Virus record (IMG/VR): IMGVR_UViG_3300034190_001591
Coordinates: 1 to 20,500 of that record
Length of the DNA stretch: 20,500 nucleotides
DNA from: a virus
Direction: 5' to 3' (one strand)
This document shows positions 2,471 through 11,707 of this stretch, piece after piece. The position numbers and the translations under genes were made by a program. Every line of letters begins with the position of its first letter. Position 1 is the stretch's first letter. The notes below the pieces were generated by a model. The model was not told where the DNA came from. It saw only the letters and a list, made by a program, of their open reading frames with translations, and did not search any database.

Positions 2471-4327
2471 TTATATTGTCGCTCCTTCAACTATATTGTT
2501 TTCTAAACTTTGGGCTGTTGTTACATCGTTTGCAACTACATAGGCTTGAACAGGTTGGTTCGTTTGTCCTGCAACCGCATCAGATAAAACACTTGTTTCC
2601 GTTGCTCCAACTACATTAAAACTTGGGGGTAATGATGTGGGTATTGATGGGGTTGAAATACTAGGAACTGATGCAGAAGCACTCGCCCCTGCTTTCGCTT
2701 TCGTTTTTGAAACTGCTTTTTTAACAGAACTAATAATACCAACACCTTGTGCAATAGCACTACCAATAGTAATTATATTTTGTGGAAAACCAATTTTAGA
2801 ACTTTCAGCTACGTTTTGTGCTGTTGAAACTCCCGCCGAACCAACCGCCTCAACACCTTTAAATGTAATTCTTTTTAAATCCATTATAGTTTCTTGCAGA
2901 GCTAAACCTTGTTTTATAAGTAACAAGGCTTTACCAATTCCTGATTCTGCATCTGCAAATTGTGATATAGCATCTACAACGGCTTTTTTATCTGCTATCT
3001 TTTGTTTGTCTAATTCTGCTTCTGCTTTATCAAGAGCTATTTTATTATCTAATCTTAAACCATCATAATAATCTTCTACTTCTTGTTTTTGTTCTTTTGT
3101 AGCTTTTAACCTATCTAGTTCAGCTAATTTACGTTCTTCTTCAAGGTTTATTTTTTCAAGTTCAGTTTCAGCATCTTTATCTTTTTGTTTTTGCCTATAT
3201 GCTTCTTGTATTTCTTGAATCTTTAGAAGTTTTTTATCAATTACTTCTGGTTCTTCTTCTGCTGCCTTTTTTGCTTCGTTTCTAGCTGTTAAAAGTTCTG
3301 TACTTAACCTCTTTTGTAAATTAAGTCTTTGTGTTTCTAACTGTATAACACTAGCTTCTAATTGTGCTGCTTCGTTTAAGTCGTCCTTATTACTTTTAGT
3401 TAAAGCGTTTTCTGTTTGTTTTGCTTCTAACCTTAATTTAGCTACTTCCGTTTCTTTTGCCGCTAAATCTTCACTAATTTTCCCTGCTTCTTCTAAAAAT
3501 TTAATGCGTTCCTCTGCTGTGAATTTATCTTTATTAACTGCTTTTTCTCTAAGTCTAGCAATATCTTGTTCCGCTTGTGCTCTTGAAACTATTAAATCCC
3601 TTGCTTTTTTTTCTGCGGTGGCTCTTTGGTCTGCAATTTTAGACGCTGCCTCTGAATCTGCTTTTATTTCTTTACCAAACGCCTTAACGGATTCAACCGC
3701 ATTATCTAAGCTATCAGTGACGCTATCTACACCCAAAACAACCTTACCAACGCTGTCAGCGGCAATCTTTCCTGCCTCTTTAAAATTACCTTTAAATAGC
3801 TGCTCAACCGCTTTACCTAAGTTTGGTATTAAGTTTAATAAACCCTCAAATCTATTGACTATATTATCTTTAATTAAATTAGCAAAGTCTTTTATTGATT
3901 GTTTAGGATTTTCAAAAACACTTATAATATTCTCGCCTAAGTCAGCTAATAAGTCTAAAAGGTTTCCTGTAACGCTACCAATAACACCGAGTATTTTTGC
4001 AAATTTATTTTGACCCTCCTCGCTTCTTGTAAATGCTTGGCTTAAAGAAGTAACCGCAATTAATAAAGCACCAATTCCTGTGCCTATTATAGCTACTTTT
4101 AAAGACTTAAAACCAGTTGTTACACCACTAATAGCACCCTTAAAAGCTGCAAATTTAGAAACCGCTCCACCTGTGGCTTTGTCAAGAGTTCCGCTCATTG
4201 CTTGGGTTGATTTGCTTGTTTCCTTGACTTCTTTGTTTACTCCATCAATACTTTTCTCTAAGTCATTTAAACCCTTTGTAGCCTTTTTACTATCTACGTT
4301 TAAATTAATAGTTTTTTCTATTGCCAT
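2471..4327 (-). CDS. Tail tape measure protein
   Basis: This is a 618-residue protein with a tape-measure build. The N-terminal helical segment (residues 1-50) has the common phrase KKATKGLNDLEKSIDGVNKE. A Gly/Ala-rich hydrophobic segment lies at about 73-98 (KVAIIGTGIGALLIAVTSL). A long charged coiled coil covers roughly residues 220-450, rich in Lys, Glu, Ala and Gln. A second Gly/Ile/Ala hydrophobic stretch lies near 515-535, and the C-terminus is Ser/Pro/Ala-rich. The protein should line the tail tube and set its length. By the usual rule of about 0.15 nm per residue, this suggests a tail near 90 nm. It begins inside the 46-residue upstream gene (10-nt overlap). Confidence 0.85.
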   Translation of the reverse strand: MAIEKTINLNVDSKKATKGLNDLEKSIDGVNKEVKETSKSTQAMSGTLDKATGGAVSKFAAFKGAISGVTTGFKSLKVAIIGTGIGALLIAVTSLSQAFTRSEEGQNKFAKILGVIGSVTGNLLDLLADLGENIISVFENPKQSIKDFANLIKDNIVNRFEGLLNLIPNLGKAVEQLFKGNFKEAGKIAADSVGKVVLGVDSVTDSLDNAVESVKAFGKEIKADSEAASKIADQRATAEKKARDLIVSRAQAEQDIARLREKAVNKDKFTAEERIKFLEEAGKISEDLAAKETEVAKLRLEAKQTENALTKSNKDDLNEAAQLEASVIQLETQRLNLQKRLSTELLTARNEAKKAAEEEPEVIDKKLLKIQEIQEAYRQKQKDKDAETELEKINLEEERKLAELDRLKATKEQKQEVEDYYDGLRLDNKIALDKAEAELDKQKIADKKAVVDAISQFADAESGIGKALLLIKQGLALQETIMDLKRITFKGVEAVGSAGVSTAQNVAESSKIGFPQNIITIGSAIAQGVGIISSVKKAVSKTKAKAGASASASVPSISTPSIPTSLPPSFNVVGATETSVLSDAVAGQTNQPVQAYVVANDVTTAQSLENNIVEGATI

Positions 4328-8712: not shown

Positions 8713-9176
8713 ATTTCAATATCATTATTTACAAATATGTCAAACGTTGCAGTCCAACCTGCTACTTTGTTTTCAAACCTATCAACAAAAGGTTCTAAAC
8801 TTGCATCACCATCTAATTGATATTTATCACTGTATAAATCGCCACGCCTTAAAACTTGTACTAACTTATTTAAAACTGCCAGTTGTGTGTTTAAAACGTC
8901 CTGTTCGTTATTGTTTCCTATGAATATATCAGTAGTTGGTTCTTTGCTTTCATCTACAATATCCATTGCTAAAATAGAAATGTTAAACCGCAAAACGCTT
9001 TCTTGTGCAGTAACGGTATTTATAATCAAATGAGATAATGGAAATATTGACTGCTTAGACAAATCAATATCAAACAAATCACCCTCTGTAACGGTGTTTA
9101 CATTTATATCAGATAAAAGTTGGTCTTTTATTGCTTGGGTTAATAAATAATATCCTCTTATTCCTGTGTAACTCAT
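8706..9176 (-). CDS. Probable tail terminator/completion protein
   Basis: This is a 156-residue protein starting MSYTGIRGYYLLTQAIKDQL. It contains LFDIDLSKQSIFPLSHLIIN (about residues 50-70) and QDVLNTQLAVLNKLVQVLRR. These phrases recur in a Bacteroidetes phage family found beside gp10-like genes. Size, mixed alpha/beta pattern and position between the chaperone and the gp10-like gene match tail terminator or tail completion proteins of siphophages. The start overlaps the end of the chaperone extension by 4 nt (ATGA), so it is translated directly after the frameshift product. The specific role is inferred. Confidence 0.6.
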   Translation of the reverse strand: MSYTGIRGYYLLTQAIKDQLLSDINVNTVTEGDLFDIDLSKQSIFPLSHLIINTVTAQESVLRFNISILAMDIVDESKEPTTDIFIGNNNEQDVLNTQLAVLNKLVQVLRRGDLYSDKYQLDGDASLEPFVDRFENKVAGWTATFDIFVNNDIEIC

Positions 9177-9427
9177 TTGAATTTGCTTTTAATATTTCTT
9201 GCTTCTATTTCGTTTTTTTCTTTTGTATATGTTAAGTACGTCAAACATTCGTGAACGTTTAATTTAGTGATATCTTCAAATCTTGTAACATCTCCGTTAG
9301 CGATTGCATAGATTGAATTGTACCATCCCCATTTTGTAGTGAATCCAGATACTGCACTAAATTCTCTTCGTTCTGTTTGCTCGAAGAGTTCAGGATAACT
9401 GTCGATAAGTCTTTGCCTAAATCGTAA
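9173..9427 (-). CDS. Tail assembly chaperone, frameshifted C-terminal extension (gpT-like)
   Basis: This reading frame carries 84 residues from Leu (TTA at 9427-9425) to the stop at 9173. It is best explained as the -1 frame extension of the 9259..9903 gene. Its second half, KWGWYNSIYAIANGDVTRFE followed by ITKLNVHECLTYLTY, has the usual pattern of the C-terminal part of siphophage tail chaperone fusions (WGW...IY.lA.GDi..fd.i..l....CLtyL.y). An ATG exists at 9451 in this frame, but it lies before the slippery run and encodes only a short Phe/Cys lead with no homology-like character. Reading through the frameshift would give a fusion of about 243 residues (159 + 84). See the slippery site at 9426..9434. 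Confidence 0.7.
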   Translation of the reverse strand, partial: LRFRQRLIDSYPELFEQTERREFSAVSGFTTKWGWYNSIYAIANGDVTRFEDITKLNVHECLTYLTYTKEKNEIEARNIKSKFK

Positions 9428-9903
9428 AAAAAAACCATTGCACCAAAACAAGCATCTAAAGGATAATTCTTAGCATCTTCATTTATATCTGGGTCGTATT
9501 CTTTTAATGTATATCTTTGACCTTGTAGTAATTCAATAGGTCTGTATAAAACATTCATAGCTCTATGTAAGTTATCATTATCACCCATAAAGGTATCTAA
9601 GTCCACATATTCGCCAAAACTCATATTTTCTAAGTCTGGAATAAAACCGTAATCTTTATTGTTTAATTTAAACCTATTTAACATTTGATGCTCTACGTCA
9701 AACATATTATTTATAATAATACAAATATCTGTTATATCCTTAGCTTTCATTGAGCGTACAACCTCAACAGGCACTTTACAGAATATCTCTATCATTTTAG
9801 ATTGAACCTCTGATTCTTTTGTAATATCTAATTTTGAAAACTCTTGGTACTGCCCTAAGGTGATTTCGTTTAAAGATGTTGGTATGCTTAGTTTTACTTC
9901 CAT
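9259..9903 (-). CDS. Tail assembly chaperone, zero-frame product (gpG-like)
   Basis: This is a 214-residue protein, mostly helical. It starts MEVKLSIPTSLNEITLGQYQ, a common opening of Bacteroidetes phage chaperones ('sIP.slnEIxLgqYQ'). The middle includes FIPDLENMSFGEYVDLDTFM and HRAMNVLYRPI. At codons 157-159 (V-F-F) the gene crosses nine U residues, where a -1 shift would join it to the gpT-like extension. After that point the zero frame is Ser/Gln/Asn-rich (VILNSSSKQNEENLVQYLDS) and runs to the stop at 9259. The pair resembles lambda gpG/gpGT, which holds the tape measure protein during tail assembly. The location ahead of the whole tail module, not directly before the tape measure gene, is unusual. 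Confidence 0.7.
   Translation of the reverse strand: MEVKLSIPTSLNEITLGQYQEFSKLDITKESEVQSKMIEIFCKVPVEVVRSMKAKDITDICIIINNMFDVEHQMLNRFKLNNKDYGFIPDLENMSFGEYVDLDTFMGDNDNLHRAMNVLYRPIELLQGQRYTLKEYDPDINEDAKNYPLDACFGAMVFFYDLGKDLSTVILNSSSKQNEENLVQYLDSLQNGDGTIQSMQSLTEMLQDLKISLN
9426..9434 (-). other. Probable -1 ribosomal frameshift slippery site (nine U)
   Basis: The minus strand reads GG-TTTTTTTTT-AC. The zero frame is GTT TTT TTT TAC. The heptamer T TTT TTT allows two tRNAs to re-pair after a one-base slip back, continuing with TTA CGA TTT in the gpT-like frame. Both the position, near the end of the chaperone gene, and the shift direction match known tail chaperone frameshifts. I did not fold the downstream sequence for a stimulating structure. 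Confidence 0.65.
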
Positions 9904-10498: not shown

Positions 10499-11707
10499 TT
10501 AAGATACGGTATATTTACCTCTGTTTGGGTTTTGTAATTGAAAGCCTACTGCATAACGAACCGCATCTATTAAGTGGTTATATTTGTCTATTGGTGTATT
10601 TGATTTGCGTTCTAGCCAACGATAGTTATTTAGCTCTTTAATTAAGTTTGTGCTATCTGGACTTACAATAATATCATAATCTTGTAGTAAGCTGATGCCA
10701 TACGTTATACTTCCCTGTCCTTTTATACTTGGACGTACATTACAACCCTTTGCTTTTATTTCGCTTAACAGTCTTGGTTCGGCACTATCCCCAATGATTA
10801 AACCCTCTCTAGCGTGTTTTAAATTAAGTTGTGCTATTTGTGAAGTAGTTAGCCTTTGTAGATAAAAACATTCCTTTAAGTAAATACGTTTGTTTGTGCT
10901 ATCTATATTAACCTCAACCAGTGTACTAGGGTCTGCTGCGAAACCATAATCTTGACCCCACACGCTTGTACCTATATGTTTAAATTCTCCAACGCTCCAA
11001 TTATTAAATATAACTCCCTCTGCTTTGTTTAACCACGAACCTAACATTTGTTGTTTATACTTATCTGGTCGTCTTACTTTCATTTGCTCTATTTGGTCTA
11101 TATAGCTTTTAGATAGATTGTCTATATTGTCCTTATAGGTTGTGTGTATATATGTGGTGTTTTCTTTGGTTGCATTGCTACCCTCTTGAACCCCTCTATC
11201 TTCAAAGAAACGCTTGTATATAAAATGCTCTTTTGTGGTTGGGTTAAGTATTAATATTATTCTATTCGGTTTGCCTTGTTGTCTTACCGATAAATCAATG
11301 GTATCAAACTTTTGCTCGTCCACCAGTTCTTCCGCTTCATCAACTACCCAAGTAGTAATGCCTTGCAAAGATTTAAGGTTTGCAGTCTGGTCACCGCTTG
11401 AAGTTTTTATCCCTCTGAATATTATTTTACTTCCAGTCTTTTTGTTTAGTATTTCGTCTTTAGTTATATGGAAGTCTGCTATTGAACCAAACTGTTCTAG
11501 CTTGTCAATAAACTCTGGTATGATTGATATATAAGCCGATGTTAGTGTATAACGAGTAAACAGTATTGTATGCCCTTGTTCGTATGTAAGCATAACAAGT
11601 AAGGCGTTTACTGAAAATGACTTCCCAGAACCACGCCCACCGCTAATAATAAAATACCTACTGTCGCTTTCAACAATAGGCATATATTTTTTTTTAACTT
11701 TAATCAA
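10499..11707 (-). CDS. terL: Terminase large subunit
   Basis: This is a 402-residue ATP-driven DNA packaging motor and nuclease. The ATPase domain has Walker A GGRGSGKS (residues 23-30), an adenine/coupling region with LFTRYTLTSA, and Walker B with the catalytic Glu in WVVDEAEELV (120-129). LILNPTT at 152-158 is likely motif III. The nuclease domain follows with acidic residues Asp253 (WGQDYGF), Asp307 (IIGDSAEP) and Asp381 (HLIDAVRY). The order and length fit the Terminase_3/PBSX-type family. The start overlaps the small subunit gene by 8 nt. Confidence 0.95.
   Translation of the reverse strand: MIKVKKKYMPIVESDSRYFIISGGRGSGKSFSVNALLVMLTYEQGHTILFTRYTLTSAYISIIPEFIDKLEQFGSIADFHITKDEILNKKTGSKIIFRGIKTSSGDQTANLKSLQGITTWVVDEAEELVDEQKFDTIDLSVRQQGKPNRIILILNPTTKEHFIYKRFFEDRGVQEGSNATKENTTYIHTTYKDNIDNLSKSYIDQIEQMKVRRPDKYKQQMLGSWLNKAEGVIFNNWSVGEFKHIGTSVWGQDYGFAADPSTLVEVNIDSTNKRIYLKECFYLQRLTTSQIAQLNLKHAREGLIIGDSAEPRLLSEIKAKGCNVRPSIKGQGSITYGISLLQDYDIIVSPDSTNLIKELNNYRWLERKSNTPIDKYNHLIDAVRYAVGFQLQNPNRGKYTVS

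Follow-up and report, generated by a model that had tools for sequence, protein, structure and literature searches.

In a stretch of 20,500 nucleotides from a virus (positions 1 to 20,500 of the IMG/VR record IMGVR_UViG_3300034190_001591, hereafter the window), one gene very probably carries a conserved -1 recoding site from which a short and a long protein are made, both of them likely tail assembly chaperones. Most of the mRNA would be read straight to give a G-like short product of 214 residues. In a minority of events on the T9/U9 tract, reading would move one base back and add a helical extension, giving a G-T-like fusion of 243 residues, so that both proteins would be made, at some ratio. 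The pair may work like gpG/gpGT of phage λ, the short form coating the tape-measure protein and the extension recruiting tail-tube subunits, with both forms absent from the virion. Judged from the sequences compared, the frame relation, the invariance of the run, the selection on two frames from the run onwards and the lack of a nearby -1-frame ATG are established.

The slip site and its homologues

All features of the locus lie on the minus strand. The zero-frame, G-like open reading frame (9259..9903, 214 aa) encodes a mainly helical protein with the N-terminal motif IPTSLNEITLGQYQEF and is represented in an alignment of 43 members. The T9 slip site (9426..9434) lies in the codons GTT TTT TTT TAC, that is V157 (GTT, 9435-9433), F158 (TTT), F159 (TTT, 9429-9427) and Y160 (TAC), where the frame could change by a -1 slip after F159 or by one extra U in the mRNA. 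After a step back at 9427, the -1 frame reads TTA CGA TTT AGG and continues as an extension of 84 aa and a stop codon (9173..9427), modelled as all-helical and containing a T-like domain with KWGWYNSIYAIANGD. The 243-aa fusion (9173..9903) corresponds to join(9903..9427, 9427..9173), and the zero-frame tail of 55 codons and a stop overlies the -1 frame in a dual-coding stretch (9259..9426). The coordinates, frames, T9 and join of the first-pass annotation all hold. The motif WGW...IY.LA.GD that it had described in the extension is present as a pattern, except that the window has IY.IA (WGWYNSIYAIANGD) and not IY.LA; the extension carries KWGWYxSIYxIAxGD. Just upstream of the G gene, an inverted repeat CCTGTAA...TTATAGG followed by T9 (9977-9949, minus strand) resembles an intrinsic terminator; it was not among the results of the pattern scan.

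Homologues were gathered from IMG/VR, GTDB genomes and phage records with both frames as queries, and removal of identical stretches left 372 distinct loci. An alignment of homologues had been suggested as a check on the run and its frame, and it bears the proposal out: a T9 (n=256) or T10 (n=114) with the -1 relation is kept in 370 of the 372, and none of the 372 has a run under nine T. The run occurs in three different codon phases across loci, and an in-frame slippery heptamer T_TTT_TTT is present in every -1 locus. A second IMG/VR record (L001/L081) is 100% identical to the window at the protein level in both frames. When 395 Bacteroidota genomes were scanned with the G and T profiles, G was found in the seed genome only, and the weak T matches elsewhere came without the motif.

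Codon choice in the run is constrained too. In a non-redundant set of 154 sequences (less than 90% identity in the upstream coding part), TTC was never found among the Phe codons of the run, while four conserved Phe codons upstream of it are TTC in 6-44% of the same sequences. In 255 distinct T9 loci the second Phe codon never ends in C; a change to TTC would leave the zero-frame protein unaltered and would still give Leu in the -1 frame. The comparison indicates that the run is kept by selection as a homopolymer of at least nine T.

The two exceptions among the 372 are assemblies of a single virus, with T11 in L328/L415 and T12 in the near-identical L416. The T11 form reads the fusion in one frame, and the run is the sole indel in 3.7 kb between the T11 and T12 assemblies; the difference may be a real polymorphism or a homopolymer error. 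A homologue read in one frame through an indel in the run, which the first-pass annotation regarded as the observation that speaks against recoding, was therefore found in this one virus only, against 370 loci without it, and does not overturn recoding. The idea of a sequencing or assembly error, or of a decayed single-frame gene, draws on the error-prone nature of homopolymers and on this T11/T12 pair. It has practically no chance of being right: sequencing error is excluded because the 370 distinct loci, from many metagenomes and from isolated phages, all have the two frames in the same relation, and protein selection acts on the zero-frame tail (see below). The loci concerned are L328 (2972-2983), L415, L416 (1972-1984) and L417; a relative with 87% identity carries T10. 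Over the 610 kb of the 154 non-redundant loci, sense-strand A runs of at least nine are rarer than under a first-order model (17 against about 60 expected, lengths 9-11), and sense-strand T runs of at least nine are not scarcer than under that model.

Two coding frames over one stretch

Codon-position entropy was computed at zero-frame positions 1/2/3 in 68 non-redundant ungapped sequences. Before the run the means are 0.57/0.42/1.20, the third zero-frame position varying most. Over most of the overlap they are 0.45/0.66/0.61, all three positions being restrained, and past the zero-frame stop they are 0.25/0.90/0.35, where the third position of the -1 frame varies most. The coding signature thus switches from zero-frame to dual at the run, and from dual to -1 at the zero-frame stop.

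The overlap was also simulated by keeping one protein, redrawing its codons and scoring the other frame (mean BLOSUM62 and openness over 54 codons). With the -1 protein kept alone, 0.6% of draws had a zero frame without stops over 54 codons, and the mean BLOSUM62 of the zero-frame tail was 0.40 ± 0.06, against 2.45 in the real sequences. With the zero-frame protein kept alone, the -1 frame stayed open in 0.2% of draws and its mean BLOSUM62 was -0.02 ± 0.07, against 3.31. Since both frames are conserved beyond the simulation, the tail of the short product is selected in its own right and the overlap is a real two-frame gene, with protein selection on both frames for about 54 codons past the run. 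The earlier proposal of -1 recoding on a U run, of a fusion and of coding in both frames is thus backed by the 370 of 372 loci, by the entropy and by the simulation.

Relatives among isolated phages are the Nonlabens phages P12024L and P12024S (Inhavirus), direct homologues at about 30% protein identity with the -1 frame and the same neighbouring families. They carry CTT TTT TTT TAT at the equivalent site, followed in the -1 frame by LSFRERLRDLYPEL...KWGWY (KWSWY in P12024S). Their zero-frame product is 175 aa long, compared with 214 aa in the window, and the zero-frame tail past the run is shorter in the Nonlabens group (15-26 codons), so no particular length is required. The two records give two hypothetical proteins (genes 40/41 and 38/39) without recoding. 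The second genes (JQ823123.1 24473-24640; JQ823122.1 23663-23830) begin at an ATG that lies within the conserved -1 domain, which costs them its first ~28 residues; annotation as a recoded fusion could take their place.

A rival reading has two separate genes, as the annotators of P12024L/S called them, the -1 open reading frame having its own start through reinitiation at a TTG, for instance the one at 9451 in the window (the first-pass annotation had given this codon as ATG). Such an arrangement is very unlikely. It would require no conservation of the T run, the start called by the P12024L/S annotators removes part of a conserved domain, and in 156 loci the open -1 frame showed no ATG close to the junction, an observation that counts against an independent start.

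Gene neighbourhood and probable role of the products

The surroundings of the pair are those of a tailed-phage structural module, with a terminase large subunit (TerL), a neck/tail-completion-like protein (phrog_29822) and a tape measure. The order in the window is a small open reading frame, TerL (10499..11707, minus; PF04466/PF17288), a 77-aa open reading frame, G/G-T, phrog_30964, phrog_29822 (a weak 'tail completion or Neck1' match), phrog_35281, phrog_38559 and a tape-measure-like protein (2471..4327, minus; phrog_20660 at E 6.7e-11 and other tape-measure PHROGs). In P12024L the families come in the same order, with additional genes ahead of the tape measure. The tape-measure gene of the window is directly followed by an XkdF-like head maturation protease (2435-1833, minus; PF14550), and a protein at 738-127 (minus) matches the C-terminal part of phrog_24921, the same PHROG as the XkdF-like protease. 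Head genes seem to come after tail genes here, with the protease and the scaffold-like part split.

The likeness to λ gpG/gpGT consists in -1 recoding by which a small protein gains a minor form with a C-terminal extension, within a tailed-phage structural module. The overlapping frames with a conserved -1 shift (370/372) and an X_XXY_YYZ heptamer in register, as in λ-type pairs, are found here. The position is different: the λ G/T genes adjoin the tape-measure gene, whereas the window pair, which does not lie between a major tail protein gene and the tape-measure gene, follows TerL and the 77-aa open reading frame and is separated from the tape measure by four genes. It is therefore not placed as λ G/T, contrary to what was first proposed. 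The pair also has no detectable profile similarity to λ G/T, the λ shift site differs from the T9/T10 of the window family, and in the window the zero frame stays open for ~54 codons beyond the slip, where it and the extension overlap as two frames under selection. It is not filed as a member of the λ type; on the recoding evidence it probably works like one. Phage P2, which has a contractile tail, encodes the chaperone pair gpE/E+E' with an overlapping -1 frame and the shift site T_TTT_TTG. The T-rich site, the chaperone pair and the overlap are alike in P2 and the window, but the P2 heptamer is short and not a homopolymer of at least nine.

The short product matches phrog_32199 (function unknown) in 43/43 members of the alignment and phrog_166 ('tail protein') weakly in 16/43. 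Neither it nor the -1 frame of the window has a match in Pfam or NCBIfam, and Pfam, NCBIfam and the PDB offer no relative that would name the protein a chaperone. AlphaFold gave a fairly confident, mainly helical model of G (pLDDT 79) and a helical model of the extension (pLDDT 75). G had no significant match in the PDB by sequence or by fold, and the T domain had none there by sequence; its model was compared with viral predicted structures. In BFVD, the G and T models, searched separately, match eight common viral proteins of 226-267 aa (A0A516L5A8, A0A6J5SVK3, A0A6J5N3F3, A0A6J5N0W0, A0A6J5MY57, A0A6J7WJY4, A0A6J7WDG4 and A0A6J7XA66), which suggests that both halves may occur as one-frame fusions elsewhere. 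Since the matches on the T side are weak, at E 0.016-0.43, and come without residue ranges, they count as support and not as proof. The fold matches in the viral library are uncharacterised models and one 'tail assembly chaperone' at E 0.23. Flavobacterium phage 6H was a weak fold match in this library; neither T9 nor the KWGW frame was seen in the region inspected.

The fusion could be real and serve head-tail joining or another assembly step. This is unlikely, even if the order TerL - G/G-T - phrog_30964 - phrog_29822 in both phage groups and the lack of chaperone profile matches fit it. Against it stand the weak phrog_166 matches and the hallmark of chaperones itself, a small helical protein of a long-tail module that carries a conserved -1 extension. 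The chaperone-like role proposed at the outset is kept as the best guess.

Slippage by RNA polymerase or by the ribosome

One inserted U and a -1 ribosomal step yield an identical protein. We slightly favour RNA polymerase inserting one U as the main event over the ribosome slipping on U_UUU_UUU, and both may contribute. The preference arises because no conserved signal other than the homopolymer was found and because nine-T runs are efficient slippage sites in bacterial transcription. In vivo, stretches of nine A or T make bacterial RNA polymerase slip efficiently, T9 being a classical site (PMC5009743). The first-pass annotation had called for a search for a downstream pseudoknot or stem, and none emerged from folds without explicit pseudoknots: RNAalifold returned 0 pairs for 41 sequences, single-sequence folds were no better than shuffles (z -0.66 and -1.14 for the window) and Rfam gave no match. 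Transcriptional slippage yields two protein forms in the Shigella gene spa13. At a nine-base run in dnaX of Thermus thermophilus it is likewise productive and gives two protein forms (PMC5009743). Neither dnaX nor spa13 is a phage assembly gene, and slippage in the window is inferred.

Purely ribosomal -1 slippage, with tandem tRNA-Phe re-pairing on U_UUU_UUU as at λ G/T and with an incidental T9 length, has somewhat less than an even chance. To our knowledge, the recoding cases of tail chaperones are ribosomal. They are cited as precedent for ribosomal slippage (PMC5009743), and a tested bacterial chaperone cluster showed 6-7% frameshifting (PMC3711429). Every run contains an in-frame T_TTT_TTT, and the T's on either side of it follow mostly from the encoded residues, V/L/I/F before it and Leu/Phe of the -1 frame after it. 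However, in E. coli U_UUU_UUU shifted far less readily than A_AAA_AAG (PMC5009743), the search for a conserved stimulatory structure was negative, and the doubly tolerated C described above is absent. The absence of TTC may nevertheless be explained by weaker ribosomal slipping on TTC. T11 and T12 in one virus would not yield both G and G-T by -1 slippage and would suit transcriptional slippage, yet they may be assembly errors. As most T's around the core heptamer are set by the two proteins, the run length alone does not decide between transcription and translation, and for the same reason a statistical split of the two models failed.

The recoding device itself is already known from other phages; no existing annotation was found for the gene family, the long two-frame overlap or the all-T slip site. 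The host type of the window phage is marine Flavobacteria-type. That RNA polymerase slippage on T9-T10 sets the chaperone short:long ratio across a large Bacteroidota phage family, with the overlap as a true two-frame gene, has a little less than an even chance. With this finding, a widespread family of Bacteroidota phages that has hardly any annotation would gain a recoded chaperone pair, and records listing two hypothetical genes would be corrected. The slip site seems to be made up of the homopolymer alone and is conserved over 30-100% protein identity, and this makes it a clean case for telling transcriptional from ribosomal recoding, in hosts whose programmed frameshifting has received little study. 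The overlap, ~54 codons read in both frames, is a well-sampled natural overlapping gene.
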